Below are positions 561-36,455 of a stretch of DNA of 64,000 nt, in pieces. The stretch comes from Diphasiastrum complanatum (Eukaryota > Streptophyta > Lycopodiopsida > Lycopodiales > Lycopodiaceae): contig CM055093.1 in NCBI GenBank assembly GCA_029204225.1, positions 20,973,701 to 21,037,700 on the forward strand. The letters are read 5' to 3'. Below the pieces are notes generated by a model, which saw only the letters and a list, made by a program, of their open reading frames with translations, searched no databases and was not told the origin of the DNA. Position 1 is the stretch's first letter; every line of letters starts with the position of its first letter. The position numbers and the translations under genes were made by a program.

Positions 561-2781
561 GTGAGCTTGGGGAGACGAAGAATGTAGGGCAGCAAGCAAC
601 ACAAACAAAAACTATGAAGAACTGAAAACGGTTTGGATGTTTGCTTAGATTTGTTCATTTAAACAACATCAGCTAAAAAAGGGCTGAAAACTGTTCCATC
701 TAACAGGAGAACCCAAGCTTCTAGTTCTGGGTTTAGCTGTATATACTCAAGATCATGAAAACAAATGCCTTTAATTTGTACCCAATTAATTTAGAATGGA
801 GTCAATTTGTATTGACATTCATTATGCTAAATAAAAAAACTGGGATCTTCTACTTTGCTTTGAAAGCATGCAAAGTCTACAGGCACCTTCAGACAAGGTC
901 ATAAAACAGTAAAATATTCTAAAGAGGGCTTTTATCATGCATTGAAAAATGTTCCTTACGAGATTGAGCTCAAAAGGAAAGTCCAATTGAGAAAATTGTC
1001 CTGCTCAATCAGTGGTAAATTCTGCTGTAATATGCTGAACACTAGTTCCATGGCCCAGAAGATTTTTTCTAACAGGTGACAAGATTGATGCCTGCATGAT
1101 ATCACCTTAAGGACATCAAGTCTAACACTGTTTTTTAATTATAGGAATTTTCTGTCAACTATTATGTATTGAAATGCACTTTTTTTTATTTTTACACACT
1201 GGTTTAAATGCTAGTTCCAAATAACCCTTATTACCCTTGGGGTAAAAGGTTAGCATGACATCTCAATGTTCATTTTTTGAATTGTGCATGGACTGAAGTT
1301 CCCGAGGAATTTATAGGCTGCAGACATATTTGGTTGACGTTGTGATTCTGTTTTCAAAGGCTTTTAAACATGAGACCACAAAATATTGTAAAGCAGATCA
1401 TGGCTTTTGAATGCTACATGCTGATAAATTATGAGTCCTGAAGGTAAGAAATTGTTTGAAAGCATGTATTGGCCCATAAAAAGTCTAAAGAAGTTGAAGG
1501 TTAATACAGCCTATAAAAAGTTAAAACAATGTGGGCTGTAGAGATATTTTAAACCATGAAGTAGAATCTTGCCAATCTTTCATGTTCGGGATTTCTAGTG
1601 AGTTTTCCACCCGGTAAAACAACTACAAAATCATGTCATTGAAGGATTCTTTAGTGACCTTTCCAAAAGGTAAAATGACTGTAGAATTATGGCCATTATT
1701 TTAATGCGGTTCAACTCGATGGAAAAGTCACTAAAACATCCATTGTCTAATAATTGAAAGGCTAGTTGATTGCCTATTTATTATTCATTTTTGAGGTGAA
1801 TTATGTTCTGCAAAGATTGACATTCCTTTAGAATATACAGGCTGAGACACTTGTGTAGTTAGAATCTGGAAAGTCTATCCTGACATGATTTTATGACCAT
1901 TTCGCTGGATGGAAAAGGCACTAAAAAAATCCATTCCACAATATGTAAAGATGGAGTGCAGCATTCTATTATTCATTCTTGAGGTGCTGTAGATCACTTA
2001 TGCGGGGCTTTATTCCCTGAGACGCTTTACCTCACTCCTCGTGCCCACACCTTTCCCCGTATTGAAAATTTTAATCAAGAGCGAAGTGTTTTTGTTTAAA
2101 TGTCACTTGAAATCAAGGGGAAAATAATATTCATTCAGGAAATGTAAGGAGCTTCATCTTTGTAGAACAATTTCTATCAACAACATATAAGTTTCATCAT
2201 GCTCTGATAGAGTACTTCTAGTAGCTTTAGACAATCCTATGGTGATGCCAGGCTGCCTGCAATTTACAACCACTTCATGGCATCAACACTAATGGAAGCT
2301 TCCTATATATATACTGCAACTGAGAACTCAATGTAATATTTTATCTTGCAATATCTTCCCTGCAAATTCCATGGTGTCTACACAATTATTTAGTATCCTG
2401 TGCAAAGTAAAATCAGAAGAATTTTCCGCCAATTATAGTATGGTTTGCTAGGAGATTGTGATTTCTTCCTTATACAGAAACTACCTGGTATTACCAATTC
2501 AGAACCCTGATGGTTGTAAGCTGTGAGAAAGATAAAGAGGGAGATAATAAAATTGATAGGAAGCCAAATCCTTGACAGCAGTAATCATTTGCAGATACAG
2601 TATTTTGAGGAATTAATGGAAGATCAAAGTTCAGTTTTTGTGGGTGGGTTCTGATATACAGAAGAAGCTGTGGCACTAGGATTGATGATCGATCATATGA
2701 GAGCGTTTATTGCAGCAGTTCATGGTTGCTAGAACTTATATATATCGTGGAGCTATCAACTGTAAGCAAGCGTTTGCTTAC

Positions 2782-3033
2782 CAAGTTCAAGAGAGACGAA
2801 CTTCCCCAGCTGCAGGTGCCATAGTCGCACTTCTCAGGAGGCCACCAGTCCAGCGTTGCGCAGATAAAATTGGGATCCACCTTGGCAATTGTCGTTGATC
2901 CATCTATACTCACCGTGACTGTGGCGGTGCTTTGCGCATTGCATGTGGCAGTAATCAGGCAAATTTCGAAGAGCCAGCGGATCAGAGCAGGCATGAGATA
3001 TTTGGGCTTGCAATAACGGTTTGAAAACGCCAT
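2782..3033 (-). CDS. Exon 1 of a second GH79 heparanase-like gene (partial)
   Basis: This exon encodes 84 residues with a hydrophobic signal peptide followed by the start of the mature GH79 protein, and it ends at a donor reading g|gtaagc identical to that of the copy at 33886. The ATG at 3033 is chosen because it matches the first in-frame ATG of the partner gene. It retains the family motif LDWWPPEKC. Compared with the 33886 copy there are nine substitutions: eight in residues 1-25 and only one (W63 here, L63 there) in the remaining 59. No exon 2 is seen between 2781 and 1, so the rest either lies left of the window or is lost. It could be a live gene running off the window or a 5' fragment. 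Confidence 0.7.
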
Positions 3034-3336
3034 ATTTCTGTAGCTAAAGCCTAAGCTAAGCACTGATGCAGCAAGATCAAGGAAGCCATAGATGTTGCAA
3101 CGTAGAATGAACTATGAAATTTTGATGAAGCGGCTATTATAGCTGATCTCAACGGTGACGCTGCACACGACATAGCTACGATTTCCTTCCTTATCTCGTG
3201 ATCTATAACACTCCGAGCAGTTGAGAGAATATTTTCAACATTCAATGGTTCCCTCCCTGGCTTGCAAGCTCCCTATAGATTGTTAACGTCACTTGCTGGG
3301 CAAGCTGCATCTATTAAGTCAAAGATACACCTACAT

Positions 3337-3458
3337 CTACCAATTCAAAGCGATATAGCTACTTCCAAAGCAAAAGCATAGCTATAGCTAGAGGCAACTA
3401 CCAATTCAAAGCAAAACACAGCTACTTCAAAAGCAGAAGCACAGCTATAGCTGGAGTG
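3337..3458 (-). repeat. 61-bp tandem duplication upstream of the arm-1 exon
   Basis: Two copies of a unit beginning 'ctaccaattcaaagc' and containing 'gctatagct' start at 3337 and 3398, about 300 bp upstream of the arm-1 ATG. Arm 2 has a single copy (near 33530-33595), so this is an arm-1-specific change in the presumed promoter. Confidence 0.7.
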
Positions 3459-3686
3459 AAGGCAAGCTTGCCACTCGATTTGTACCCACATAACAGTACT
3501 GCTCATGCCAAGTTTGCACTACCACATATGATATTGTAGGTTGCTTTGTTTTTTCATTTTTGGCTGATTAGTCTGTTTCATACTAGAATTTTGAATTTAA
3601 TGATGATGTGTTATTGTGGAGCTTAATTACTCATCTTTATTCTGTTTCATTTAAGCTTTTTGTAGGAGAGAGAGAGCTTTTTGTAG

Positions 3687-3688
<2 letters not shown>

Positions 3689-3725
<37 letters not shown>
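3689..3725. repeat. GA microsatellite
   Basis: A run of about 14 GA units is followed by 'gcgagcgagcgagcg', within the block unique to arm 1. Confidence 0.9.
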
Positions 3726-3728
<3 letters not shown>

Positions 3729-4865
3729 GCGCACGAGCCGTTTTCTTAGTGACCTTTGCACTCGATAAAACAATCGTAAAATTATGTATTTTTTGTATGA
3801 GAGAGAGCGTTTTTTTTTTTTATTGACCTTTGCACTCGATAAAACAATCGTAAAATTATGATGAGGTTGTTTTATTTACACTTCTTGTATGGGGAATGGT
3901 CTTTTTTTGGTGACCTTAGCAATTGGTTAAATGGCCATAAAATTATGAGGAGGCCGTTAGGCTAAGCCATAATATTCAAATGGCCATTGAACTCGTTTTG
4001 AATATTTTTTTTTTCTAGTGTTAAGGATGTTGGGTTCTAAATTTTTTGACAATCCTAATGAGTTCCTATAAAAATTTCTTAATGTAGTTAGAATCCTATA
4101 ATGAGTGTCTACTCAAATCTTAGTACATAAACCAATGGTCAGTTGGGGACCACTATTACTGGGGCCTAATACGACCTCACTATAACTTTCTACAAATTTG
4201 ATTGGTTGTAATTTTCAGCCCTCAAAATAAAAAGTTATCATGGATGGAATCTTGAAAATATTTAATCTTCATGGATGAAATTATGAAAATACATAGGCCT
4301 CATAGAATTATGAAATACGTAACCCTTACATATCACCAAATTTTGAAAATAATTTTCTTTTATTTCTTTTAAGATTTTAGTGACACACATTTATGGGTGT
4401 TTGTCTTGCCATGGTAAGATATAATGGATTGTCCTCTCATCTCGCTGCTACCGCGGCGAGACCATAGGACAAGCCATTATATAATCGCCATGGGCCTCCA
4501 AATGTCAAAAACTAGTAATATGCCAAAAAAGTAGGTGAGGCCATTTTCACCATCAATAATATGCCAGCCATAGTTTCATGACCATGTCATGTTCATGCAT
4601 TTTGACGAACATGGATTATAGACAGAATCTTTTGAGAAATCAAGGTCTTTCCATGATTTAATACTCTTCATCAAGAAGAAGTAATCTTTTGAGCAAAACT
4701 TTTAAATTGTTTTTGGGTATTTTTTAACTATCTATAGACGCGTATAGTGCAAAAACGATCCGCTATACCTAAAGATGAGGGAGTTATGGAGTGCACTAAT
4801 TTACCTGGCTCATAATGGACAACGAAGATTATTCTTATCATTATAAATACCTTTGCTTGGTTTTC

Positions 4866-5340
4866 ATGTCGTGAAAAAGTCCCAAGTTAGAGATTTCCAA
4901 GGTTTGACCAAACCAGCCCTAGGGCTACTGCTTGGCCTTGGTGGTTTCTCAAATTGTGGAAAGAACTTGGGACGAGGCTTCTTCTACACTTACATGGCTA
5001 GGCTCTTTCTATTGCATCAATAAATCTCAACGTCAAAGACTTTCTAATTTGGAAAACTATGTTGCGGGGCCATTGCCTTGGCCTTGGTTTCTCAAATCCT
5101 GGAAAGATCTGGGTTTCTCAAATCGTGGAAAGATTTGATGCCAAAGCTTCTCACTACACTCACAAGGCTAGGCTCTTTCTATGCCGTGAAAAAGTCCCAA
5201 CATCACAGACTTTTCCCAGTTTGAAAAACTATGCTAGGGGCCAGTACCTAGGCCTTTGCTTCTCAAATTGTAGAAAGACTTGGGTAACTCAAATTTGGGA
5301 AAGATCTCCTACCAAGCCTTCTCACCCACAATATCGACAA
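4866..5340. repeat. Three-unit tandem repeat, ~150-170 bp period
   Basis: Units share 'gtgaaaaagtccca', 'ggctaggctctttct', 'ttggaaaactatg' and 'tctcaaatygtggaaag' blocks; anchors fall near 4869, 5016 and 5185. The plus-strand ORFs here follow the repeat and are not considered genes. Confidence 0.7.
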
Positions 5341-6345
5341 ACTAGGAAATGCATTTTTTTTTTTTACCTTATCCGACTTGGTTAGTGTATATAAGACCCT
5401 TACCATGTCCCAATCATATACCTTCCAGTATGCAAAGAATTTCTTTGGGTTATTTATGAGGCTAGTTAACAGGTCTTTTTAGGAGTCCTTACTTGGTTAG
5501 GTAGTAAAAGCCCTCATACAAACTATACAACATCCTCTTGTACTTACACAAATACTTACAAGAATACTCATAGGATTGCAAAATATAGAATACTTCGTAT
5601 AGTGCACGGTGATTTGTGAATAACAAGTATTTTGCAGCTAAGGTAGAAAGCAAATAACATGTATTGCAGTTCCAATAATCTACACAATTCTAGTAGAATT
5701 AATGCTTTTTGTAGTAAAACCCATAATGAGAAAATATCAATCCAAGTGGTAATGTACTTACTAATTGACGACCAAGGAAAACTCTGGTTGAATTTGTTTT
5801 TCTTTGTATGTATGCCATCATTTGTTTCCACTTGTTGGGGTCTAAATCCAAGCTTAGCAAAAATCTTGAAAGCCTTCATAAGAGACTAGAATGCCAATAA
5901 TCGGGGGACCACAACTCTAGAATATTCTTCTCTTATTTCGCACTAAATTATTTGCATGATTCTCAGACCTCGATGTAGTTGAATGATTCAAAGTTGACTA
6001 AGCGTTGACAATTCAGGCGCAACCATAAGTTAGGATTGAAGTTTAAACATCTAAATTATTCCTTAGGTTGGAAAGAAGATGGGCATAAGATGGATGGAGC
6101 CCACCTTTAGAAGATTTCTCTCCTTCAACCTACCATCCATGAAAACCTGACCCACCATGGATGGATCAAGTCCAAATTCCAATCATACCTTCAACTTTGT
6201 GGGCATTGGACAACATGGATTTGAGCATACCCACTTAATTTCCAATTGAAGAACTTCTTCTATCTTAAACTTTCATTCACCACCTTCTCAATATGATAGA
6301 TCCCTTTCAAATGAAAGATTTAGCTTTTGGAAAAGTTACAAGCCA

Positions 6346-7987
6346 TATAAAATTTCTAAAATTTCATGGGGTATTTTTCAGGTAGAACTAATGCTTGATC
6401 AATTAAAGACAAAATTAGCAATTACACCACCAAGGGATCAGTTATGTTTGTAGTAATTATGGTGATGAGATATCTACCATTTATTGGAGAATGGCCTCAC
6501 TTGTAAAAAAATTATTATTTCTAACAAGTTTCCTTCACATTAAAATAGAATGATGATTGCTATTTTGTGGAAGGTGAAGCCAAACATAGAGGGATCACAT
6601 TCACACTATAGCCATATATCATATTCAAGTTCTTTTGACGATCCTCTCAAAGATGACCTATCTTTTATAGATGAGTTCTAGCTGAAAATCATTATTTTTA
6701 ATTATATAGTTTCCATATATTTAGACCTTTGTTTTCCCCCCCCCCCCCATATAGTTAGATTATTTATAGCTTGCATGGCAAAGTTGTACACAATCCGTCA
6801 TATCACCTTATATAACCTTGGAAGACACTAATTCATGGAGGATGGATCAGACTAATTCTTTTTTTCAACTCAACTCTCCATGACTCACACCAGTCTATGA
6901 TTAACAATCCTTCTATGGCTCTGCACTCTTCATGACTCTCCATGACGTTCACTAGTCTATGAGTAATGTCTTTCTATTACTTTGCACTCTTCATGAATGA
7001 CTCTCCATGACTCACACTAGTCTATGAGCAACAATCCTTTTGTGGCTCTACACTCTTGGTCCATATTAGGGCTCTAATACTAGATGATAGAATAGATAAA
7101 GGTCCTCTAACAAACAAAGACTCAAAAAGAAAAAGTCGTTCTACTAACTTCAGACTGTGAGTATACACAAAACTCACATTGTGGGCAACTCATGCATGGA
7201 CATGGGTTGTTGTCGTTTGAGACATGTAGCATCTCCAAGGCCCCAGTGAGGCACATACATGACCAAGACTAAAAAGTTGAAAACACATTAGATTGGAATT
7301 TTATATTTTAATAACAATATCATTGGTGAGAGACATTAGTGGCTACGAAGGTGACGGAGACAATTGAATTGCATGACAAAAATTAGAACATGGTTATGGA
7401 AAAAATGGCCTTAATGATTGGTAACCAAGTGGAAGCGTAGCAAAAGCAATGAGCACCCTAGATATAAGAAATACTAGAGCTACGAAAAAAACGTCTTGTC
7501 TTTGAAATTAGCCTTGGATGCACTTTGTTCTTTATGAGCCCTTGAATGGGTGTCACCAAAGATTTTCACAAGGCAAGATGCATCTTAAAGGTCTTGCACC
7601 TAATTGTGACGCATTGTTGGATCTACTCACCTTATCAACCATTGTTGAATTTTCACAAGACAAGATGCGTCTTAAAGGTCTTGCACCTAATGGTTGATAA
7701 GGTTAAGAAAGGTTTTAAACTTAGCTTAAACGGATGGACATGATCTGTTACTTCTACATCAAGGCAAAATATCATTTTCCATGAAACTTCATTGTAAACC
7801 ACTTTATATCACTCAGTTTCGACAGACTTGCTTTCACAACACTTTGTGAAGAGAATTCATTAGCTTTCTTCTATTGAGAGTGCGCCCTACCAAGCTTTCT
7901 TCCATTGGTTTCTACTCTATTGTAAGCGATTCATACCACCTCATGACAAAGCAATCACTTATCTCATTGGTGACTACTTTTTGGTGT
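6346..7987. other. Intergenic, no gene; short tandem repeats
   Basis: No supported coding sequence. It contains a 13-base C run near 6736, a three-copy repeat of about 65-70 bp with 'gactctccatgac' and 'ctagtctatgag' at 6871-7060, and a paired direct/inverted repeat at 7563-7702. Confidence 0.6.
7563..7702. repeat. Direct repeat overlapping a hairpin
   Basis: A ~42-bp unit ending 'aaaggtcttgcacctaat' occurs at 7563 and 7648 with few mismatches. In addition 'ccttatcaaccatt' (7631-7644) is the exact reverse complement of 'aatggttgataagg' (7689-7702), enclosing the second unit. Confidence 0.75.
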
Positions 7988-7992
7988 GTTAT

Positions 7993-8867
7993 CGTCATAA
8001 ATCGGTGGTCGTGAGTGCAGCGGAGGCTCAATGGCTCAGAGCATAGGCTTGTAGGAATGGAAACACAACAATTAGCAGCAGAACTATTCAAGTAGAAGAA
8101 TTTATATAGTTTGCGCAAATGAACGACACAATAGTGAAACAAAAATTGCACTTTGATAAAAATATCAACAGTGAGTACAATGGCTTGAAGTAATAACTTC
8201 AACTTGCTGAGCGTGATAACGCTGGGTACAAATAACTCTGCTTAAAAGAGAATTTTCAAAAATTAACACTTACATGGCGTGTTTCAGCTAATATAGAGAT
8301 TTACAAGAGAGGAAATATCTTACAAGCCTTTAAGGCTATTTATGCCAGTCTTTGCATATGTACAAAAGTTGGTAACCGTCACCCACCTTTGGGATATTTG
8401 TTTGTCCAGCTATTTTAGGGTTACTCATCCACTGGTGAAGTTTGTCAGCAAGAATGAAAAAAAGGCAAAAGTGCCTTAAAATGATTTCTAAGATATTCTG
8501 GCCACTTGCCCAGTGTGTCACATTTTTTGCTAAGGAGCGAAAAAAACGAAGGTGCCTTAAAATGATTTCTAAGGTATTCTAGCCACTTGGCCAGTATGTT
8601 GCATATTTCGCTAAGGAGCAAAAAAGGCACAAAGGCGAAGGTGCCTTAAAAATGATTTCTAAGGTATTCTGGCCACTTGGCCAGTGTATCGCCTTTTTTG
8701 CTAAGGAGCAAAAAAGAGAGACGAAGGTGCCTTAAAATGATTTCTAAGGCATAGAAAATCTCAAAGGGAAAAATGTGAAAGTCTAAAAATATGTTGTCGG
8801 CCTTCGGTTTTTTAGGATGCTCATTACTTGAACGATTTGTTAAAGACTAAGCATAAGAAATCTAACA
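7993..8867 (-). repeat. 3' LTR of copia element E
   Basis: On the minus strand it begins TGTTAGATTTCTTATG just downstream of the polypurine tract. The U3 part (about 8460-8760) is a tandem array of a ~75-bp unit with 'gaaggtgccttaaaatgatt' and 'ctggccacttggccagt'. The terminal CA has mutated (plus-strand end cg). Confidence 0.85.
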
Positions 8868-8880
8868 CTCCCCCTTAATG
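8868..8880 (-). promoter_or_regulatory. Polypurine tract of element E
   Basis: The minus strand reads cattaagggggag directly before the LTR start, the usual primer for plus-strand DNA synthesis in LTR elements. Confidence 0.8.
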
Positions 8881-10992
8881 CGGATCTTGAAAAACTTTGA
8901 TCTTCAGATTTAACATATCGTTAAATCTGAGATGTTGCTCCTTTGATAGAGCCTTTGTGAAGTACTTCCTTACTGTGCACTTTCTCTCTAAGGTAGTAAT
9001 ACTTGATTTTTATATGTTTGCTTCGAAAGTGAAATCTCAGATTGAGAGATAACGCTATTGTGCTTTGATTGTCACAATAGATTGTTGTAGAAAGTGGTTG
9101 TGCAAGATTGAGGTCTGTTGCCTAAGCCAGATCACCTCTTTGGTTGCATTTGTGGCAACTATGTATTTGAAGTAAACATTCGGGTCTACTGAGTTTGGAA
9201 TAAAACCATTCTCTATAAAAAATGCATTGATCTTCTGGAACCAGGCTCTGGGTGACTGTTTCAGCCCATAGAGCACTTTGTGAATTCTGCATACAAGGTG
9301 TTGTTGCTTGCCGTTGAGTTCGTATCCCTTTGGCTATGTCATATAGATTTCCTCTTCAATGGTACCATTGAGGAAAGCGGTATGGACATCCATTTGATGA
9401 ACTTCGAGATTTGCTGCAGCTGCAAAAGAGAGGAGTAGGCGGATCGAAGCATGTTTGATGATTGGGCTGAAGGTTTTTGAATAATCCAGATCTAGAATCT
9501 AGGAAAAGCCTTTGGCATCTAGCTTGGCCTTGTAATGATTTAGCCTTCCTTCAGCATCGTACTTTGCCTTGAATATCCATTTGCATGGAATTGGTTTTCG
9601 ATCCTTTGGCAGCTCAATGAGTGTCCATGTTTGACTCTCCCGGAAGAGATTTTAATTCGTTGTCTATTGTTGCTTTCCATTGGTTAGCATCAGAAGTAGA
9701 CATCACCTCAGAAACTGTGGTCGGTTTCTGCACAAAGTAGCAGGCCGGATCATCCATAAATCTGGATGGAGGCTGTCTGGACCTTTTCGATCTCTAGGTT
9801 TGAACTTTGGTCCTCTGATGTGGGTTGACTCGTTGAGGTTCTGACTCATCTTTTGAGTCATCATCGAGATTCTGCAATTGAATCTCTAGATCATAATTGA
9901 CTGGTTGCTCGATCTGTGATTCAAAATTATCAACAACTTTTTCTTTGTGGTCGAGGAACTCATCAATGACATCTCTACTGGTGAATGCCTTCTCGATATC
10001 CAAATTGTAGAGCTTGTATGCCTTGTGATTTTGGTTATAGTCGATGAAGATCGTTTTCCTGCTCTCGTCATCTAGCTTTCTTCTTAGATCCTTAAGGATC
10101 TGAGCGAAAGCGATGCACCCAAACACTTGAATATGTTTGAGTGATGGTTTTGATCTTGTCCATACCTCATAAGGTGTCTTGCCATTTAGGGCTTTGGTGG
10201 TGGATCGATTCTGTAAGTAGGCAGCTGTAGCAACAGCTTCTCCCCATAATTTCTTTGGAAGAGAGGCATGGGCCATCATGATCTTGGCACTTTCGACGAG
10301 TGTCCGGTTCTTTCGCTCAGCTAAACCATTGGATTGAGGTGAGTAGCTGGTTGTGTATTGTTGAAGTATCCAGCCTTGTAGAACTCCTTGAATTTTGTGA
10401 AGATGTATTCTCCCCCTCCATCTGTGCGTAGAGTCTTGATCTTCCTCTGGGTCTGGTTTTCTGCAGACGCCTTCTTGAAGAACTTGAATGCTTCGGATTT
10501 GTTCTTCATATAGTAGGTTGCAGTCCTTCAAGAGAAGTTGTCAATGAAGGTTAGGAAATAGAGAGCTCCCCTAGGAGAAGCAGTCTGCATCGGGCCACAA
10601 ATGTCGCTGTGTATAAGGTCAAGAAAGCCCTTGGATGTATGAACTGAAGGGACTTCTAACATGCTTGCTGATAATACAGCTTTCACATGGAAAAGTTGGC
10701 TTGCTAACTGAAGGTAGGTCTTGTACTAGATTATGAGCTGACATTTGCTGAATACTGTTGTTATTAAGATGGCCAAGTCTGAAATGCCACAACATATCGG
10801 TTGATTCAGAAGTGGCTGTGTGAAGAGCTTGATTGTTAGAAGAATAACAATGGCTGAGTTTGTAAAGATAGCTTCTTCTTCTTCCATAGGCTAGAACCTT
10901 CTAGGATTTGTCAAGGATTGTGTAGTCTTTTGTATCGAATTCGACCCTCCAACTTGAATGGGTGATTTTGCTAACTAAGAGCAGATTCTTGG
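8881..10992 (-). pseudogene. Broken copia pol (integrase, partial RT, RNase H scrap)
   Basis: Minus-strand fragments in order are: GAG-pre-integrase remnants (about 10550-10990); the integrase core and C-terminal region with the hallmark SPQSNGLAERKNRTLVE and the downstream VFGCIAFAQ region (9794-10531); the RT N-terminal region with frameshifts; and the RT motif LYGLKQSPRAWFQK at 9055-9276. In that last ORF RT sequence ending DPNVYFKY runs straight into the RNase H motif ATNATKEVIWLRQ, so the YVDD catalytic region is deleted. No functional polymerase can be made. Confidence 0.85.
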
Positions 10993-12105: not shown

Positions 12106-12234
12106 TCTGGTTGAACGAGATTGTTGGTAGAAACAACGACTGTCGGAATACTGTTGGCTGCGCGTTTGCTAGAAATGTCTTGATAGAAACAAGACTAATA
12201 ATTCACAGTAAAAATGCAGATTACTGAAATGCCT

Positions 12235-12246
12235 GCTCTGATACCA
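12235..12246 (-). promoter_or_regulatory. Primer-binding site of element E
   Basis: The minus strand reads TGGTATCAGAGC immediately after the LTR, the canonical plant copia PBS complementary to initiator methionine tRNA. Confidence 0.9.
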
Positions 12247-23520: not shown

Positions 23521-24258
23521 ATGCTATTATCTCTGATTGTTCAAGAATTTGTGAGCCCAATTCAAGCAAAAAAATAGTTTATCACTTTTCTTTACCTTTC
23601 TTGAAAAGTGTTTGGATCAAAGAGGACAGAAACTAGATTTTCATATCAGAATTGACATTGTACGGAAATATGAAATTCCGCACGTGTGAAAATCAGAGTT
23701 TTTCAGACCTCTTTAATTCCTTCATATTTGGTCCAAAGATATTGACGTTATAGCTTGATGGAAAGCTTATGATGTGTACTTTCCATTGCAATTGATCCTA
23801 AATCAATCTAATGTGTCTATCAAGAGTTATAAGCTCTTAAAGAGGGTAGGGAGAGGTCCAAAATCCGAGTGACCACTTTTTGATTTGATTCAATCTTGCT
23901 TGATTCATAATCCATTGTTTTGAGTAGTCAACACAATAAACTGAAGATCAAGACAAAGTTTGATGTTATTGAACACTTTTGAGCCTTCTTTGAATCATTA
24001 GTGTTTTTTTTTTAGCCTCTAACACATGCCAAAATTAGAATCCAAACTTGTCTATGTTCCTCAATCCATTTTGAGAGACTGATCTAGATTGTCTTGTTTT
24101 GTGGAATATTTGAGATCTATCTCAAATACAATTGCAAGTTTTTCACATAGGAATGGTAGCACACCCTTGAAAATACCTATAGTGAAAGAGAGTAGCAACA
24201 TCAAGTCTGATTGGAACAAGCTCAAACATATAATTGTCCAATAACAAGAAGTCTTCAC

Positions 24259-26525
24259 AATATGGCACATGTAGGAGGATGTCTCTTAGAACCAAGTAAA
24301 AGACTAAGTACCTCCAATTATTCAATATGGAAGGTTAGGATGAAGTCAGTTCTAATACTCCGGGATGTTATGGACATAGTACTTGGTATTGAGGAGGAGC
24401 TTCAGGCACAACTTGAAATACCAAAGTATAGGAAGAGAGGCTAGAATGGCTCTACACTTCATTAAAATGAATGTCTCTAATGAGATTCTAAGAGAAATAA
24501 AATCTTGCACCACTGCTAAAGAAGCTTGGGATGCACTTAAGTCAATCTATGAAGCTAAGAACACTTCTAAAATACTCATTCTTAGAAATCAAATTTTTCA
24601 AATTTTTCAAAGAAGTGAGGAGAGTGCATCAAATTATGTTCTGAGAGTAAAAGATCTTTATAGGGAGCTTGCTTGTGTTGGTGTCACAATCAATCAAGAT
24701 GAGCTAGTACAAGTCATTCTAAATGGCTTAAAAGAAGACTATGATAATCTTGTTCAATCCTTTGCCATAAAGGAGGAGTTGCCCAATTTGGAAACTCTTC
24801 AAGGAGTTCTCATATCTGAAGAAGCAAGGCAAAGTTACAAACTTTCTAGGATGAACAAACCCGAGCATCTTGGAAGTGACAAAGCTCTCTTTGTCAAGGA
24901 CAAGCATAAAGGGAGAGACAAAGATGGTGAAGAGGATGACTCAACTCATCCTTCTACTTCCAAGGCCAAGAAGAAAAAAGTCAAGTGTTTCTTTTGTGGC
25001 AAGAAGGGGCACTATGCCTCTAATTGCTTCAAAAAGAAAAATCAACTCAAACAAGCAAATCTCTCTTTTATTGCAAGTGATGGAGAAGGATCACTCATGG
25101 TGTCAAGTTTTTCTTCTACTGCAAAATCACATAGAAAGCCATATCAAAAGTCTTTTATTAAGACTTCTCATCCTTTGGATTTAATTCACTCGGATGTTCA
25201 TTTTTCTTCCTCGAAAAGTATTGGTGGTGCAACTTGTTTTGTTACCTTCATTGATGATTTTACAAGATATACTTGGTTGTATCTACTTTCTTCAAAAGCT
25301 ATGGTGTTTGAACACTTCCTAGTCTTCAAAGCTTATGTCAGAGAAACAGTTTTCTTTCAAAGTTAAAGCTTTAAGATGTGATGGAGGAGGTGAATACATC
25401 TCCAGCAAGTTCTATGATTATTGTGAGGTTGAAGGGATTAAGAGAGAGTTTTCTTTTGCTTATTCTCCATCTCAAAGTGGAGTTGCTGAAAGAAAAAATT
25501 GATCTCTATGTGAATGTGCTAAAGCAATTGTTGAAGCTTATTTGCCTATGGAATATTGGGGAGAAGCAATTAATTGTGCAAATTATTTGTGCCATAGACT
25601 ACCTCACAATGCACTTACCCTTGGAAACAAGGAAAAGAGAGGATCCAAATTCAGTCAAAGGGATCATGGTTGGATACTCATCCAACCAGAAGGCTTACAA
25701 AATTTATATTCCTCTACCTCAGTTACAATTAAGAGTAGAGATGTTATTTTCCATGAGAATAAAAAATACATCTTTGATGAGGTCGAGATCAAAGATTCCC
25801 AAAAAGATTCTCCTATCATCACCCTTGAAGATTATCATGGAAAGATGGGGCCGAGAATTGAGGAGGAGTCACCTCGAATTTTTTCACCAAGGAGATCACA
25901 AAGAGAAAGATTCGAGCCTAAGAGGCTTACATATGGAGATAAGCAAGTGGAACTCAACTCGACTAATTATGCTTATTTTGTTTCACATGACGAGCCAAAG
26001 GATGTGTATGATGCACTCAACTCAAAAGAATGGTTTCTATCCATGAAAGAGGAATATGATGCATTGATTGTCAACACGACATGAAAGCTTGTGGATCTTC
26101 CATCCAACAAGCACACCATTGGTTGCAAATGAGTTTTTTGAGTCAAATATTATCAAGATGGCACAATCAACAAGTACAAGACAACACTTTGTGCAAAGGG
26201 TTTTGCTCAAGTTTATGGACTTGACTATGAGGAGACTTTTGCTCCAGTTGCAAAGATGGTATCAATTAGAATCATTATTTCTATTGCTTGTTTTTTCAAA
26301 TGGCAAGTTTTTCAACTAGATGTCTCAAATGCATTTTTAAATGGATATCTAGAAGAAGAAATTTATATGGATCAACCCCTTGGGTTCATCCAAGACAAGA
26401 CCAAAGTTTGCTTGCTCTTCAAAAGTCTCTATGGACTAAAGCAAGCACCAAGATCGTGGTATTCTCGACGTTACACTTTTCTTGACTCACTAGGATACAA
26501 TCTTAGTAACTATGATCCTTCTTAG
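24259..26525 (+). pseudogene. Broken copia gag-integrase-RT of element C
   Basis: Gag starts at 24259 (MAHVGGCLLEPSKRL, NYSIWKVRMK), changes frame near 24400 and carries the CCHC knuckle CFFCGKKGHYASNC (24988-25029). About 40 codons later it runs directly into the integrase segment DLIHSDVHF and FVTFIDDFTRYTWLYLL, so protease and GAG-pre-integrase are missing. Integrase continues with frameshifts and a stop after GVAERKN. RT follows in shifting frames through the motifs QLDVSNAFLNGYLEEEIYM and LYGLKQAPRSWY. It ends at NYDPS, where an LTR-like segment begins. Confidence 0.85.
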
Positions 26526-26526
26526 T

Positions 26527-27080
26527 AGCTTTAGTTTTATGATAGAGATATTGTAAAATTAAAATAATATAAAACTTAGAGATTCAAGTTTTGGGGTTTG
26601 TCCAAACTTGAGGTAGACTAGTCTAGTAACTTTCCAATTAGAGTCGAATTAGTTTTTTGTCTTCATAGTGATGTGCAGGTCTAGAACCTATCAAGAAGCA
26701 TTTGAGGCTACTCTTGTAGGTCAAAGGATTCTCAAAGGAGAGATTCTCAAGTCTTATCCATCTCTCTTTTTTTTCATCTAGTAGAGAGGTAGAGTCAATG
26801 TGGCATCTAGATTGTTCTCTCTCTCTCCACGAGTTCTAGAAGGCCTCTTGTATTATAAATAAGGTGGCTTTGTACCACAAGAATACACTTCTTCAAGTAA
26901 AGCTTCCATTTGATCCATTTGAGGTGTAATGATAGTTAGATTGTGATGAATGCTCTTGCCTTCATGCTAACTAGCTTGCCAATGTTTTCCATCTCATTGT
27001 TTTTGGAATAGAAGCTAGTTTAGTGCGCAATCATTCATTCTCTTGATCCTTTGTTCTTGCAGCTGGTTCACACGTGTGAA
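26527..27080 (+). repeat. LTR-like segment inside the RT of element C
   Basis: RT sequence stops at 26525 and resumes at 27083 with a perfect RT box. The intervening ~550 bp has a TATA-like ttataaata (26857) and ends with CACACGTGTG (27069-27078), as the LTR ends of this family do. Exact termini and target duplication could not be fixed. Confidence 0.45.
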
Positions 27081-27082
27081 AA

Positions 27083-27136
27083 GTTCTCATCATTTATGTT
27101 GATGATATTATCCTGACAGGAAGTTGTATCATTTAG
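27083..27136 (+). pseudogene. RT catalytic-box fragment (YVDD)
   Basis: Translates VLIIYVDDIILTGS then CII and a stop. This is the palm motif of copia reverse transcriptase with the catalytic aspartates. It ends at a breakpoint to non-coding sequence. Confidence 0.85.
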
Positions 27137-28241
27137 TTGAAGAAACCAAAATTGTTTTTGTTTGGATTGAAAGAAATTTATAGAGGTGTGTGAGTCACAT
27201 GTGTAGTGTTTGATCCAAAAATCCTAAGAGTTCCTTCCTTTGTGGAGGGCAAGATCTATGAACTCATTTCTTGACTTTGGTGGAAAAATTGTCTTCTTCA
27301 TTGTGATCAAAACTTGCTAAGTGGCATTAGCTCTTTGTAAGCACATATCTTAGTGAGAGAGAAGTATCACATTTCTGAAAATTTGAATATCATTCCAAAT
27401 CTAAAGAGGTAGAGTCATTGATACTTGGTGGAGTCCAATAGGGGTGAATGAATTCAATTTTTGAGCAAAATTTGACATTGTATGTATGAAACTCAAATAA
27501 GTTCTAATTCAACTTTCTTTGTGAGAGGATGAGGGTCAAGTTGTGATCCCATTGGGAGTCTAGAATAGGGAGGAGCCCATATTTGAGTGTTCATACATGG
27601 TTGGGATCTTTGTGAATCTCTAGATGTCTAATTTTTAAGCTTGGTGAAAACTTATTGACATAGATTGTTATCAAACCATTTCATGTCCATTCCAAATCTC
27701 AATAGTGATATTCTTTGGGTCAAGAGGGATTCCAAAAGGGGTGATTGAATCTGATCTTTGTGTGTCTAAATCAAGTATACATGTCAAGTTTATGTGATCT
27801 AGTGTAGATCCTTTGTTTTGTGAAAATTAGTGGTCTAATTTGTTGTCAAATCAAATCAAATTCTGAGATTATCTGGGTCAAGAGTGATTCCAGAAGAAGT
27901 GATTAAGTTTGATTAAACAAAACCCATTGTTTGAGAATATCAAAAGTTGAGTGAACTAGTCAAGAGAAAAGGAAAATCTAGGTGTCAAATCTTTTCAAAT
28001 CCATTCCAACTCTAAAAAAAAAGAGTCATTGGTGTTTGTTGAGTCCAATAAGGGTGTTTGGATCTGATTTTTGTGATTTGATAGAGTGCTTTTGTCTTAG
28101 TGATCAAATCAAAGCTTAGTTTCCATTTGGTCTAGATCTTGTGTAGATACTTCTAGATTGTTAAATGTGTTCAAATCTAGTTTCTTGAGAGTCACAAATT
28201 ACATTTTGAAAAGTCATATCACAAGATTTTACTTCCTCATC
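27137..28241 (+). other. Non-coding leader-like tract with degenerate repeats
   Basis: Repeated blocks combining 'ttccaaatct', 'gagtccaataggggtg' or 'gattccaaaaggggtg' and 'gaatctgatttttgtg' occur near 27400, 27690, 27855 and 28003. No gene. Its position ahead of a gag-like start suggests a retrotransposon leader. Confidence 0.5.
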
Positions 28242-28496
28242 ATGGCATCAATAGGTGGCAACATATTGGAGGCAAGTACGGATCCTAAATGCAACCTTTG
28301 TGGCAAGAGAGATCATTTTGTGTCAAGATGCTACAAAATGAAGACCAATCCATCCAAGGGCCAAGGTGAAGGATGGAGCTTATTATTTTCAAATTTTTGT
28401 TTTGGAAAACACTTTCTCTCATGTACTACATATCAACCGCAACATCACATAATGGGAAAATTTTTATTCAATTTGGCTAGTTTCAGAAACATTTGA
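28242..28496 (+). pseudogene. Mini-gag fragment: gag start fused to zinc knuckle
   Basis: From the ATG at 28242 the frame reads MASIGGNILEAST, similar to the N-terminus of the neighbouring gags. It goes straight into a CCHC knuckle (CNLCGKRDHFVSRC), skipping the ~200-residue gag core. The remainder has no recognised domain. It is either a deletion derivative or a chance fusion of scraps. Confidence 0.5.
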
Positions 28497-28652
28497 ACTG
28501 ACAATGAACGCCATGAAATATACAAAGGTGGTAATTATTGCAAAGCCTTCCTAGGTGCATTTACAATAATGACAAAAGACTATCACGTGACATGATTTAT
28601 TTTCAAATTTTGACGTTGTTGGTTTTAATCTTGCAGGAATTTTACACTGTTG

Positions 28653-29006
28653 AAGAAACTGTCCTCAGGCCCGACAGTCCTACCAAGCCGATTTACTTAC
28701 CACAAGGCATGGAAAGTGGTGCAAAAGCCCCATTCCAACGGGCTGTATATGAAGGCATTCATTGTTATTTCAAATGTGTCCATGGGCAAGCCCACTTTTT
28801 TCATGGACAATGTCGAAACTTTGGGTGTAATTCGTGGCATTCTTATGCCTGAAGTTATGCTTGTGGAAGATGTTGAGTTCATCACTCATACCGCTCATGG
28901 GATTGAATATCATGCAAAGATAGCACCCATTTCACCCAAGTGCCTGAGATTTATGACTCCAAATGCGACCTCTTCAAATATGAAGGCAATCTTGTCGAAG
29001 GAATGA
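28653..29006 (+). other. Unrecognised open frame
   Basis: An open frame of about 118 codons follows a cag at 28634-28636 that could be a splice acceptor. It has no internal ATG near its start and no family I recognise; a segment around MPEVMLVEDVEFITHTAHGI looks protein-like. The overlapping frame is also open for about 70 codons, which weakens the case. Could be an exon of a captured gene or chance. Confidence 0.25.
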
Positions 29007-29145
29007 TTGCACTCCATAATATGCATGAAATCACGAGGGAGAGAGAAGAAAATGATGAAATAATGTAAGACACAGTACAAATTACAACAACAACAGTCTC
29101 TGAACTTCACGGTCCAACACATGAAATACATGGTGTTTGGGGAGT

Positions 29146-30050
29146 TGTTAGAAATCATCATCTCAATTAGAATCAAGATCGATTCCAAGATAAATGTCTA
29201 GAATAGAAATGTGGATTGAGATACTAGCAGCAGATTTAGAATGACAAGTTATGACTGAGGATCCGTAATGCGTCAATATAGCAGCAAGAATCAAGATGAA
29301 TTTAATTAATAAGCAATGCACAAGAATAAATTAGTGTGTGGATAAAATTTGCACTCTTTGATTAATAAAAAATAGAGTACATGAGCGTGAAGCTGTGCAT
29401 GAGTATGTGAAGCACAAAATAGGAGAGCTTCAGTCGCTAGATCATTGATTAAAATAAATAGACTAATTGCAGACTTTAGACCTACTTGATCGTTTTGATT
29501 GATCTGGTATATACATTGTGTTGATGATTTCAGATTAATTGATTAGTACTTGAAAGTATAAGATTAGATCTACTTAGTTTACTTGTAAGAAATAAATCTA
29601 TGTACATAGTTGACAATCTGTCAACGTCTTCCTTCTAATCATGACGTGGGTCGAAACGAGTGAGAGTGTCAAAATAGCATATGAGTCAATATTGACTCTA
29701 GGTCAGAAACAGTGCTAGGTCGATATCGATTTGCCTCCTGGTCAAAATTGTTGTTGGGGTCAAAATAGTTGTCCAGGTAAAAAAATTTACATGATTGAAC
29801 TCAGTTGAGAGTCAGAATAGATAAGATCTGATTCTATCAAGGGTCGAAATATGTACAGTGATGGTCAGAATAGATTATATCTGATTTGATCCATCAAACT
29901 AGGTCAAAGATCGAAATAGATTTCAATTTCATAATGGATTTCGATCTTCTGAATATAACTTCAATTTTTATGAATTTTTTTGCTAAATATATACAGATTT
30001 CATGATCCTCATTATTGGATGGATTTAGACCTGAGCATTAAAATCCAACT
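29146..30050 (-). repeat. 3' LTR of copia element H
   Basis: Minus strand begins AGTTGGATTTTAATGCTCAG (first TG mutated), next to a polypurine tract (taagggggag). U3 contains a loose array of 'ggtcgaaat' and 'ggtcagaatag' units (29640-29960). The start aligns with the start of the LTR ending at 63576. Confidence 0.65.
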
Positions 30051-30057
30051 CTCCCCC

Positions 30058-31860
30058 TTAATGTGGATCTTGAAAATTTTCAACCTTTAGATATAGAATA
30101 TTGTTAAATTTGATATGATGGTCCTTGGATAGTGCTTTGGTGAAGTAATCTACTATCATAGAATCTGTCCTACAGTAAACCAATGAAACTTCCTTGCTCT
30201 GCACTTTTTCTTTGAGGTAGTGATACTTGATTTCAATATGCTTACTTAGAGAATGAAATCTCGAATTCAGAGATAGTGCAATTGTGCTTTGATTGTCACA
30301 ATATAAGGTTGTTGGCTGTAGTTGAGCAAAGTCGATATCCACTCTTAGATTTTTCAACCAAATCATCTCCTTCGTAGCATTTGTGGTAGCTATATATTTT
30401 GATTCGGTTGATGACAAAGCTATTGAGGTCTATTTTTGGCCGTTCCATGAGATCAGATCTCGATTGAATAAGAATACAAATCCAGAAGTTGACCTTCTGG
30501 TATCGATATCTCCTGTCCAATCTGCATCTGTATAACCTTTAAGAATATTGGCAGATTGGCTGCCTCCATAACAGATGCATAGAAGTTTTGTGGCTTGAAC
30601 ATATTTCATGACTTTCATGAGTGCTTTCTAGTAGGTCAACCTTGGATTGAATAGAAACGACTTAGTGAGATGGCTGAATATGCAAGGTTGGATCAAGATC
30701 ATTGCATACATCAATGAGTCGATAATGGAGTGAAATGGGTACTACTCATTTCCTCCTTCTCTGCCTCAATTTGAGGACATTGTTCCCTTGATAGTTTTAG
30801 ACCTGGGTCTAGTGGAAAGAGACTCGATTTGCAGTCGGTCATTCCATACTTTTCCAACACATTAGCGAGATATCGTTGTTGATTGATGTAGATATGTCTG
30901 TTGGGTCAATTTTTGCGAATCTGAATTTTGAGACAATAATGGGCTGGTCATCTTGTATTCTTGTATTCCTATGTTAGCATGCATTTTACATTCTTCAAAA
31001 AATTCAAATTGTTACTGAACTGTAAAGTATCATCAACATACAAAGTGATGATTATGAAGGAAGTCAAAACGGACTTGTAATAGACATTCAAGTCTACCTG
31101 AGTGAAACCATTCTCGATTAAGAATTTATTCATCTTTTGAAACCAGGTCCTTGGGGACTATTTCAGACCATACAGTACCTTATGAATTTTGCAAACAAGA
31201 TGCTCCTTGCCCTTGAGCACATATCCCTATGGTTGTGTTATGAACATCTCCTCTTCAATGGTCCCATTCAGAAAAGCTATTTGGATGTCCATTTGGTGGA
31301 CTTCAAGGTCGAGTGTAGCTGCATAAGAGAGTAGTAATCGAATTGAAGTATGCTTAACGATTGGGCTGAAAGTTTTAGAATAATCTAGATTTGGAATATG
31401 TGAAAAACCTTTTGCGACCAGCCTAGTTTTGTATCAATTTATCTTTCCTTTAGCATCATACTTCACTTTGAATATCCATTTGCATGGAATCGGATTTTGA
31501 TTCTTAGGCAGCTCCATGATAGTCCATGTCTGATTTTCGATCATGGAATCGAATTCTGTGTCCATGGCGCCTTTCCATTTATCAATATCTTGGGTTGACA
31601 TTGTTCTAATATTAAATAACAGGCTGGATCATCCATAAAATGGGATGGAGGTTGTGTAGGTTGATTCGATCTTTTGGGATGAATTTCAACCCTCTGATGC
31701 GATTTGACCTGTTGAGAATTTGACTCACCGTTTGAGTATGAATCGATTCTTTGGTCCACCACCCTATGGTCGAAATTGATTTCGACCCTAAGATCAAAAT
31801 TTGTTGGAACCTTCCCCTTGTGAGCCAATTTCCCGAGTGAAACCGGCCGCAATCATGAGC
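30058..31860 (-). pseudogene. copia pol 3' end of element H (RT, RNase H)
   Basis: The RNase H part at 30058-30417 has STESKYIATTNATKEMIWL, YCDNQSTIAL and SKHIEIKYHYL, and ends at a natural stop just before the polypurine tract. Upstream segments (30430-30618, 30900-31560) carry RNase H/RT motifs in shifting frames. A linker with QPPSHFMDDPACY (31541-31852) marks the region between integrase and RT. Many frame breaks; non-functional. Confidence 0.8.
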
Positions 31861-31934
31861 TCCCAAGGTAACATTTGGCTCGCCCTATTAGGGTAAGTCG
31901 ATTTGTACATGATTTAGCAAGTGTACTCTGATAC

Positions 31935-32181
31935 GTGGCTCCAACATAAGCATGAAAACGTCCTCAATATACCTAAGGAGCCTTCCTTCGAAGATGGAGG
32001 GGAGCAAGTCATAGAGGACGCGCAGTGGGGCCAGGCTGCAAGAGACCCGTATGCGTGGACGCATCGACGATCGCATCCGGACTTGCAGAGGCGAGAGAGC
32101 TGTCTGGATCCCATGCTGCCACCGCGCAGCTAGGAGCTGTACTAACGACCAGAGAACGATAGATTTCTCGCCCATCTAACA
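31935..32181 (-). repeat. Short GC-richer LTR-like sequence
   Basis: On the minus strand it runs from TGTTAGATGGGCGAG (32181) to about 31935, where 'acgtatcagagtac' resembles a PBS. At ~245 bp it is much shorter and more GC-rich than the other LTRs. It could be an LTR of a small (TRIM-like) or unrelated copia family. A second copy was not found, so the call is tentative. Confidence 0.4.
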
Positions 32182-32569
32182 CCCTACGCCTTTGGGTCTT
32201 CGCCTCAGCTCCTACTATTCCTCTTTTACGCCTTTTTTTTGGGTTGTCCCAGATCCCAAAACATCTCTATGAATACTTTGTATTCGTCCTTGACACTAGT
32301 TGTTGCTTCAACTCTCAAAAGCAGTTATCTTTCTATTACCTGTCTCCATCTTTGCTCTTAAGTCAACACGATATCATACTTGCCTTTGGGCATGCTGTCT
32401 GGAATCGAGGCTTGCTGCATTTGCCGGTTGCAACGCATGTCAATGAAAGGCAAAAGATTCAGAAAAGTGTGAACCGAAACATATATCCTACAGTACGTTG
32501 CGAGAGGTCAATTAATTGAAAGGTGAAATTGCATACGAGGGTAAGAATCGAGAATTTTGCTTGTAAAAT
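32182..32569. other. No recognisable feature
   Basis: Unique AT-rich sequence between an LTR-like end and the inner edge of arm 2; no supported gene or repeat. Confidence 0.5.
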
Positions 32570-35500
32570 ACAATAAATTATTATCTTTCCAAAGGCTAGA
32601 TTTTTCATTTGAAAGTGTAAGGCAGAAGAAGCTCTTCATTTGGAAATTAGGTGGGTATGCTCAAGTCCGTTCTGTCCAGTGCCCACCAAGATGAAGGTAT
32701 GATTAGAATTTGGACTTCGATGATCCGACCCATCCCTGGTGGGTCAGGACTCGCGGATGGTAGCTTCAAGGTGGGCTCCATCCATCTCAATATCATTTCT
32801 CATGTCGCTGTTCTTTCCAGCATAAGGAAGAGTTTATATTCAATCATAACTTATAGCTGGGCCTGACTTACTTGATCGTTCAACAGCACCAAGGTCTGAG
32901 AATCACGCAAATAATTTAGTGTAATACAAGAGAAGAATATTCTAGAGTTGTGTACTCCGATTATTGGCATTCTAATTTCTTAGGAAGACTTTGGAGCTTC
33001 TTGCTAAGTTTAGGATTTAAACTCCAACACTGAGTAGAAACAAATCATGAAGACATTCATACAAGAAAGAAGAACAAATTCAGCTAGAATTCTGGCTTTT
33101 ACAGTCAATTAGTAAGTACGTTAGAATGGATTGATCTATACTCATTCTGGGTTTTACTACAAATAACATTAATACTACTGGAGTTGCCTAGATTATCGCA
33201 ACTTAGTACTACATGCTATTGCTTTCTACCATGGCTGCGAAAGTACCTGTTATTCAAAATCACCGTGTACTGTATGGTCCTATGAGTATTCTGTTTTTTG
33301 CATCCATAAAAGCCGATAAAAGATGAGTAATTGAGCTCACAACAGCACAACGTCATTAAGTTCAAATCTCTAAAATAAAACGGGCTTATGTGCCAAAAAT
33401 AAAAAACAAGCAACCTACAAAAGTACAATATCATATCTTCTGTTTTTGAAAGAACATTATATTATTTGTGGTACAAATTGGCATACTTCAGATACCGCAG
33501 TACTCTTATCTGGGTACAAATCGAGTGGCAACGTTGCCTCCAGCTATAGCTATGCTTTTTCTTTGGTAGTAGCTATATCACTTTGAATTGCTAGATGTAG
33601 ATATATCTTTTTGAATTAGTAGATGCAGCTTGGCCCCCAAGTGGGAGCTTGCAAGCCGGGGAGGGAGCCATTGAATGCTGAAAATATTCTCTCAACTGCT
33701 CTGAGTGTGACCTATCACTAGATAAGGAAGGACATCATATCTACGACGTCTGCAGAGTCACAGTTAAGATCACAACTATAATAGCCGCTTCATCAAACTT
33801 TCATAGTTCATTCTACTGTTGCAACATCCGTGACTTCCTTGATCTTGCTGCATCAGTGCTCACTACTGAGCTTAGCTTCAGAAATATGGCGCTTTCAAAA
33901 TGTTACTGCAAGCCCAACTCTCTCATGCCTGCTCTGATCCACTGGCTCTTCGTAATTCGCCTGATAACTGCCACATGCAATGCGCAAAGCACCGCCACAG
34001 TCACGGTGAGTATCGATGGATCAACAACGATTGCCAAGGTGGATCCCAATTTTATTTGCGCAACGCTGGATTTGTGGCCTCCTGAGAAGTGTGACTATGG
34101 CACTTGCAGCTGGGGAAGTTCGTCTCTCTTGAACTTGGTAAGCAAAAGCTTGCTTAGAGTTGATAGCTCCACGATATATATGTAAGTTCTAGCGACCATA
34201 AACTGCTGCAATAAACTCTTCCATATTATCATCAATGCCAGTGCCCACAGCTTCTTCTCTACATCAGAATCCTACCCACAAAAGCTGGACTTTGATCTTA
34301 AAACCATTAACTCGTCAAATACTGTATCTGCAAATTATTACTGCTGTCAAGGATTTGGCTTCCTTTTTGATTGATTTTATTATCTCCCTCTTTATGTTTC
34401 TCACAGCTTACAACCATCAGGCTTCTCAATTGGTAATGTCAACTAGTTTCTGCATAAGTTTCTAGAACCACATATATATCTCCTAGCAAACCATATTACA
34501 AATGGTGGAAAATTCATCTGATTTTACTTTGCACAGGAGGATACATTGATGCCATGCCATGAAATGGCTGTAAATCGCAGGCAGCCTGGCATCACCATCG
34601 GATCTTCTAAAGCTTCTAGAAGTACTTTATCAGAGCACGATGAATCTCTTATGTTGCTGATAGTAATCGTTCTACAAAGATGAAGCTCCTTAGGTTTCCT
34701 TAATGAATATTATTTTCCCCAATTTGACATTCAAACAAAAAGGCTTCGCTCTAATGAAAAAAATTATTTCAGGGCAACTTGTGGGCATAATGAATGAGGT
34801 AAAGAATTTCAGGGAATAAAGCCCTGGCGTAATGAACTACAGCAAAATTGGACATAAAATCATGTCGAGATAAAATTGGACATAAATCATGCAGATTATA
34901 ACTACAAAAGTGTCTCAGCCTGTATACTCCAAGGACCGTCAACTTTGCATAACATAATTCACCTAAAAAATGAATAGTAAATAGGCAATTGACTGACCTT
35001 TGGATTATTAGACAATGGATGTTTTAGTGACTTTTCCATCAAGTTGAACGGTAGTAGAATTTTGCCGAGGCCATAGTTTTACAGCCATTTTACCTTATGG
35101 AAAAGCTCAAGAATCCTTCAAGGCCATGATTTTATAGTTGTTTTACCAAGCGGAAAGGTCACTAGAAATCCTTCCCAAGCGTGAAAGATTTGCAAGGCAT
35201 TCTACTTCATGGTTGAAAATATCTTTACAGCCCACAATCTTTTGACTTTCCATATGCTATATTATCTTTACAGACTTATTATGGGCCAACATTGCTTTCA
35301 AACATTTCTCTTGACTTCAGGACACATAATTTATGAGCATGTAGCTTTCAAATGTCATAATTACTTCACAATTTTAAGTAGTCTCATGTTTAAAAGTTTT
35401 TAAAAACAGAATTCATAAAATCAACCAAATCTGGTGCAGCCTATAAATTCCTCGGGAATTTCAGTCTTTGCACAATTAAAAAAATGAACATAAAATTGTC

Positions 35501-36455
35501 ATGTTAATCTTTTACCCAGGGGTTGTAAGGGTCATTTGGAACTTGCTGCAGCTTTGAGAACATCCAACCCACTTTGTAAAAGTAAAAAGGAAGTGCATTT
35601 TCCTACATAGTAGTTGAAAGAAAATATTAATTGCTCATAATTGAAAAAGAGTGTTAAATTTAATGTCTTTTAGGTGACATATTTTGCAGTTATCAATTGG
35701 TCATCAACTAGAAAAAGAGCCATAGAATTAGTGCTCAGCATTTTATAGCAGACTTGACCGCATATTGAACAGGGCAATTTTCTCAATTGGACTTTCCCTT
35801 TTAAACTTAAGGAGTTACAATTTTCAATGCATGATAAAGCCCTCTGCAGAATATTTTAGTGTTTTATGACCTTGTCTGAAGGGGCATGTAGACTTAACCC
35901 TTTCAAACCAAAGTAGATGATGCTAATTTTTTGATTTAACAAAATGACTGTTAATACAAATTGACTGCATTCCAAATGAATTGGATACAAATTAGACACA
36001 TTTGTTTTTTTTTTTGTGACTCATCTTCTAAAATGTAATTAAGCTAGAGGAACAGAGATTGATGCAGCCCTTCACTAGTCTGCTGACCTTAAAAGTGATA
36101 ATTGATGCAAACCCTTCTGCTGACCTCCTTACAAGTAGTTGTGTGGGCAATGAATTACCAAATCGGTTCAGGAATCACAAAATAATTGTTGCTGTCAGAT
36201 GGACTTCGTTATTGGCAAATTCTTCCCTCTGGTTGGTAATTTTTGGATGATCAGCTTGTTGGGAGTTTGTTTCTGCTGAGACAATTTGACAGTTCACTTT
36301 CATATTGGAGTGTGCTTTGGTTTCTTGAAGCTTCGGGTAGTTTCGTGATCTCGAGTATAAACAGCCACCTTCTAAACCCAGAACCAGAAGCTTGAGTTCT
36401 GTTAGATGGAACCCTTTTCAGCCATTTTTTTAGCTGGTTCATGTTGTTTAAATGT
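32570..36455 (+). repeat. Inverted duplication, arm 2 (GH79 5' region)
   Basis: Partner of 655-6345. It covers about 1.3 kb of upstream flank, exon 1 and the first 2.3 kb of intron 1 of the complete GH79 gene. Continuous where arm 1 has 1.9 kb of extra sequence. The two copies are head to head, with start codons about 30.9 kb apart. Confidence 0.9.
33886..34137 (+). CDS. GH79 gene exon 1
   Basis: 84 codons: signal peptide (hydrophobic stretch from L13 to C31, probable cleavage near A33) and the mature N-terminus through SSLLNL. The donor is g|gtaagc. The ATG at 33886 is the first in frame; the codons upstream to 33856 begin with GTG and are not taken as coding. Confidence 0.88.

Follow-up and report, generated by a model that had tools for sequence, protein, structure and literature searches.

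Head-to-head tandem duplicates are known in plants, and two causes have been proposed for them: intrachromosomal recombination (PMC5322546) and recombination between inverted repeats (PMC12845241). Among described pairs, LecRK-V.7/V.8 are neighbouring, outward-facing paralogues whose arrangement has been attributed to local rearrangement (PMC5322546), and the two copies of a GH79 glucuronidase-like gene analysed here are arranged in the same way. Being neighbouring, divergent paralogues, they fall among head-to-head duplicates. For such pairs a shared intergenic promoter has been raised in the literature, and for the IAN genes intervening inverted repeats as well; the GH79 pair instead has a 26-kb, retrotransposon-rich spacer and a separate promoter region for each copy.

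Other described loci resemble this one in part. The CHS inverted repeats at the soybean I locus are likewise inverted copies of an enzyme gene and of comparable overall scale, 27 kb in that case (PMC6710647). The soybean arms are described as identical over 10.91 kb, with 5.71 kb between them and siRNAs observed (PMC6710647), whereas the GH79 arms, at 83.9% identity, are far from near-identical and are separated by a 26-kb spacer. When MIR163 arose by inverted duplication, promoter sequence was carried along (PMC5388894), and the inverted duplications behind small RNAs in Arabidopsis are reported to comprise an inverted gene copy with its promoter (PMC1820830); the GH79 copy is similar in both respects. 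Unlike these miRNA-birth loci, the GH79 pair would be expected to be transcribed outward, and its copied exon looks protein-coding. Plant GH79 genes have been duplicated repeatedly (PMC10221982), and AtGUS1-3 are also GH79 enzymes from this history (PMC10221982, PMC4052742). Many of the plant GUS duplications have been tied to whole-genome duplication (PMC10221982, PMC4052742), whereas the present pair is local and inverted. We regard it as an ordinary kind of old plant gene duplication, of low surprise.

We compared the window, the whole 64-kb stretch of DNA under analysis, with itself by BLAST, considering only self-matches of at least 100 bp. Five collinear minus-strand blocks with 74-82% identity joined 656-6275 to 32610-36454 (Table 1), and a more sensitive comparison added a small block (6333-6304/32586-32615, 90% identity) that carries the inner edge to 6345/32570. 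The top block scored 1187 bits, compared with 34.6 bits (E 0.30) for the best match to any of 200 dinucleotide shuffles of the right arm. The inverted match is confirmed. With left 3639-5576, right 33303-33318 and right 36009-36340 omitted from the alignment, the arms were 83.9% identical over 3394 aligned columns (K2P 0.183), with 503 gap columns.

The first-pass annotation had described minus-strand 655-6345 as collinear with plus-strand 32570-36455 across upstream flank, exon 1 and most of intron 1, with the arms about 26 kb apart, the start codons facing apart at about 30.9 kb and copia debris in the spacer, and had suggested comparing the window with itself as a check. That comparison recovered the collinear inverted match over the same intervals. 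Of right intron 1 (34138-37772), 64% falls within the arm homology if the 332 bp found only on the right are included, the gap between the arms measures 26.2 kb, and the ATGs at 3033 (-) and 33886 (+) face outward with 30.85 kb between them. Pfam agreed on the copia content of the spacer.

Table 1. Coordinates of the inverted GH79 arms, the genes on them and the spacer between them, as positions in the window.
Feature	Position	Strand or orientation	Remarks
Left arm, with upstream flank, exon 1 and partial intron 1 of the second GH79 copy	655..6345	-
Right arm, with upstream flank, exon 1 and the first 64% of intron 1	32570..36455	+
Arm block	656-760 / 36454-36341	inverted	80.3% identity, self-BLAST
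Arm block	758-1907 / 36008-34840	inverted	78.5% identity, self-BLAST
Arm block	1985-2283 / 34844-34554	inverted	82.1% identity, self-BLAST
Arm block	2396-3638 / 34538-33319	inverted	81.3% identity, self-BLAST
Arm block	5577-6275 / 33302-32610	inverted	74.5% identity, self-BLAST
Left-arm-only stretch, ~1.94 kb	about 3639..5576		near end ~600 bp upstream of left ATG
Right-arm-only stretch, 332 bp	36009..36340
Left exon 1, 84 open codons, GTAAGC donor retained	2782..3033	-	Pfam Glyco_hydro_79n, 74.3 bits
Conserved intron 1 start, 303 bp	34138..34440 and 2781-2487	+ and -	91.4% identity vs 83.2% for intron remainder
Right GH79 gene model, nine exons, 557 aa, eight GT-AG introns	33886..42796	+	predicted from sequence alone
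Right GH79 exons 1-3	33886-34137, 37773-37809, 40302-40479	+
Right GH79 exons 4-6	40600-40736, 40980-41213, 41353-41542	+
Right GH79 exons 7-9	41777-41902, 42115-42217, 42380-42796	+
Spacer, 26.2 kb, copia remnants	6346..32569
Copia element, gag and integrase-region ORFs	7994..13119	-	flanked by direct repeats read as LTRs
Copia gag/pol fragments, apparently two broken elements	20263..26522	+
Degraded retrotransposon fragment	29998..31737	-

The right gene was modelled from its sequence with known GH79 motifs as a guide, and its exon 2 was modelled as a 37-bp microexon (37773-37809). Residues 39-349 of the predicted protein matched PF03662 Glyco_hydro_79n over profile positions 2-318 of 318 (461 bits, E 2.3e-138). 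A search against PDB returned heparanase at 3.7e-40 and hyaluronoglucuronidase at 2e-39; 13 distinct PDB sequences matched at E <=0.001, 12 of them named heparanase and one hyaluronoglucuronidase. The glutamates of WELGNE and WIGE were both present in the right translation and aligned with those of heparanase WELGNE and WLGE; we take the first to be the acid/base and the second the nucleophile. As modelled, the right gene has the N-terminal domain and the two catalytic glutamates of a plant GH79 enzyme. No third GH79 copy was found in the window, the next tblastn match after the gene's own exons and left exon 1 having an E value of 0.75. Knockouts of AtGUS2 had more glucuronic acid in arabinogalactan fractions, while none was detectable in overexpressors (PMC4052742). 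The role that these plants suggest for AtGUS2, trimming of glucuronic acid from arabinogalactan of the cell wall or from other glycans, is probably also that of the enzyme encoded here.

We asked of the left copy whether it behaves like a gene. Exon 1 was 93% identical between the copies, with the same GTAAGC donor in both. Over the whole exon 18 codons differed, nine synonymously and nine nonsynonymously (Ka/Ks 0.27, Fisher p 0.008). In the GH79-domain part, codons 39-84, where codon 39 is the start of the Pfam match, there were seven synonymous changes and one nonsynonymous (Fisher p 1.1e-4). The same counts held for codons 34-84 (Ks 0.24, Ka 0.008), with the split at codon 33/34 picked post hoc from data already seen. 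Codons 1-33, by contrast with the domain part, carried eight nonsynonymous and two synonymous changes, and constraint was not evident there. By eye, the signal-peptide part of exon 1 corresponds to 33886-33984 and to 3033-2935(-). It appears that the targeting region drifted or changed and that the domain part did not.

We also calculated the number of nonsynonymous changes to be expected had one copy been free of constraint, under six assumed rates, the lowest being that of the conserved start of intron 1. For codons 39-84, five of the six rates gave an expectation of 9-13, and the probability of observing 0 or 1 was 4e-5 to 2e-3 at those five rates, rising to 0.04 at the lowest. When all of exon 1 was tested, the corresponding P ranged from 7e-4 to 0.05 at five of the rates and was 0.59 at the sixth and lowest. 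The sole amino-acid change in the domain part, at codon 63, was W (left) versus L (right). With L the Pfam score is 68.6 bits, 5.7 below the 74.3 bits obtained with W, and the change therefore probably arose in the right copy.

Together these data suggest that the left copy probably functioned as a gene over much of the period following the duplication, although few codons were tested and the pattern records the past, such that a recently broken gene would show it too. We favour, with a probability of roughly 80%, an old inverted head-to-head duplication of the GH79 glucuronidase-like gene that produced two divergent paralogues. In this reading the left copy would run on as a GH79 gene past the window edge. 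Of the two options offered by the first-pass annotation, the exon 1 substitutions favour a second gene running off the left edge and disfavour copying of the 5' part only. The conclusion that missing left exons 2-9 mean truncation was considered and rejected: right exon 2 sits about 1.3 kb past the end of the homology, and a collinear left exon 2 would fall outside the window, which makes the absence of this and the following left exons uninformative. Gene conversion was likewise rejected as the source of the 93% identity of exon 1, because Ks (0.24 for codons 34-84) was not below the noncoding divergence, which argues against recent conversion.

The reading that competes best with this one, though we consider it unlikely, is that the left copy is now a fragment, either because the copying took in no more than the promoter, exon 1 and part of intron 1 or because the copy was later severed within intron 1. 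In keeping with this, the homology halts at 655, before the window edge, and the left edge (1..654) had no similarity to right intron 1 past 36455 and matched, in the rest of the window, nothing beyond an internal 40-bp repeat. The stop at 655 could mark either an insertion or the end of the duplication. The case for constraint is also weaker over the whole of exon 1. Against a fragment, left exon 1 is open, its donor is kept, and its domain part has taken on only 0 or 1 amino-acid changes; a copy that was a fragment from the outset would not be expected to keep such an exon. It is possible that the left copy was duplicated whole and severed recently. Elsewhere on the left arm, the stretch private to it (3639-5576) contains a tandem pair with a 171-bp period (4984-5325), and also an imperfect palindrome (74%, 4409-4493) that is a possible small transposon.

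Divergence was uneven along the arms. K2P was 0.199 in the distal flank, 0.351 and then 0.159 in the proximal flank, 0.075 in exon 1, 0.092 in the first 303 bp of intron 1 and 0.191 in the remainder of the intron. The intron start, its limit at 34440 picked after the profile was seen, differed at 25 of 290 sites, compared with 270 of 1611 in the remainder (p 2.8e-4). A hidden coding exon in this segment was rejected, with stops in all three frames of both copies, and the segment may hold regulatory sequence. Upstream of exon 1, the TATA-like CTATAATAG was kept in both copies, at -110 on the right and -109 on the left. Two upstream ATGs, at -140 and -56, occur in the left copy and are absent on the right; of the two, only that at -56 is downstream of the TATA-like box. 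Either ATG, or the 1.94-kb stretch about 600 bp upstream, could weaken the left copy.

Within the spacer, Pfam identified copia-type gag at 10993-12105(-), 20561-21304(+) and 24383-25366(+), and retroviral SH3-like domains at 9794-10531(-) and 25378-26046(+). In the apparently broken elements at 20263..26522 the Pfam assignments are those at 20561-21304, 24383-25366 and 25378-26046, the remaining ORFs having been named by eye. In the degraded fragment, 29998-31726 was 71% identical to 52359-54151, 31075-31737 matched 9167-9858, and the ORF at 30061-30429 was named RNase H-like by eye. Repeats also connect the spacer with the sequence beyond the right arm. A second LTR element lies at 51410-57475, with terminal repeats that are 90.8% identical; its DNA is 84% identical to 9177-12724 of the spacer copia element. 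A direct repeat of 293 bp (23266-23558/46985-47277, 97.3%) was the most alike among the dispersed repeats listed at 100 bp or more, and 23347-23905 matched 45338-44792 in inverted orientation at 69%.

The terminal repeats of the copia element at 7994-13119 (7994-8867 and 12248-13119) were 89.6% identical, with a K2P of 0.113. They differed at 90 of 866 sites, versus 530 of 3142 noncoding sites in the arms (p 1.6e-6). The mutation rate of LTRs is usually no lower than that of gene flanks. If that holds here, the lower divergence of the LTRs means that the copia insertion postdates the duplication. At an assumed rate of 1.3e-8 per site per year, the divergences would correspond to roughly 4 million years for the LTRs and 7-8 million years for the arms.

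We propose that an inverted duplication of the GH79 gene would have made two divergently oriented copies, that the left one would continue as a gene beyond the window edge, that transcription of each would start in a promoter region of its own and run outward, and that retrotransposon insertion after the duplication would have widened the gap between them. The arrangement could equally have come from a tandem duplication and a later inversion. In the stretches next to the arms, we found no inverted repeats of at least 20 nt (seed 10) within either 6200-7993 or 31738-33000. The interval 6200-32700 held 46 inverted pairs, and among the 25 longest, two (I1 and I4) were the arms themselves. On the basis of these intervals we reject the idea that inverted repeats seeded the duplication, though weakly, as later insertions may have erased them.

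The first-pass annotation had further suggested that the arms could yield complementary transcripts and small RNAs, which our results did not support. Judging from gene orientation, the promoters would lie on the inner side of each arm and fire outward, and both transcripts would be gene-sense. Of 5674 left-arm 18-mers, 202 occurred in the right arm in the gene sense, and none was complementary to it. Double-stranded RNA or a hairpin would require antisense transcription, or read-through across the 26 kb of retrotransposon-rich spacer, and a miRNA precursor requires transcription through a close inverted pair. That the inverted arms give complementary transcripts or a hairpin, and through them small RNAs that silence GH79, is very improbable. 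The arms do share 127 of 5671 left-arm 21-mers in the gene sense, such that given antisense RNA some small RNAs could match both copies, and the soybean inverted CHS repeats behave in this manner (PMC6710647), but the outward orientation, the 0 of 5674 complementary 18-mers, and arms that are 84% identical and 26 kb apart, unlike the soybean repeats, all speak against it. We give just as little credence to a combined version, in which inward transcription through the spacer would produce a long hairpin or antisense RNA from the copied promoter and exon 1 arms, small RNAs would tune both copies, and the gene pair would double as an incipient silencing locus.

Least credible of all is an assembly artefact, whether a fold-back chimera or a misplaced haplotype: retrotransposon-rich sequence is prone to mis-assembly, but 16% of the 3394 aligned sites differ, there are 503 gap columns and private stretches on both sides, and a fold-back chimera would be expected to have near-identical arms.

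We also noted several features to the right of the GH79 pair. Downstream of the right gene, 45468-46409 is an open frame of 314 aa that resembles copia-type reverse transcriptase at 28.5 bits, below the Pfam cut-off of 31.6. A 434-aa ORF at 59303-60607 (+) matches DUF688 weakly, at 22.8 bits with a cut-off of 20.3, and is possibly an unrelated neighbouring gene. The microsatellite at 62146-62245, (TC)n(TA)n(AG)n, forms a near-perfect palindrome, with a complex tandem array nearby (~62372-63432). Neither an Rfam scan at gathering scores nor a tRNA scan gave any match in the window.

An old inverted duplication into two divergent paralogues makes the GH79 pair an example with internal relative dating, in which copia would have entered the spacer after the inverted duplication. 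It also illustrates that the pattern of substitutions allows a partial judgement on a gene cut by the window edge. Should both copies be expressed, the divergence of their signal-peptide regions and the conservation at the start of intron 1 would be small leads on how the GH79 role may have been split between them.
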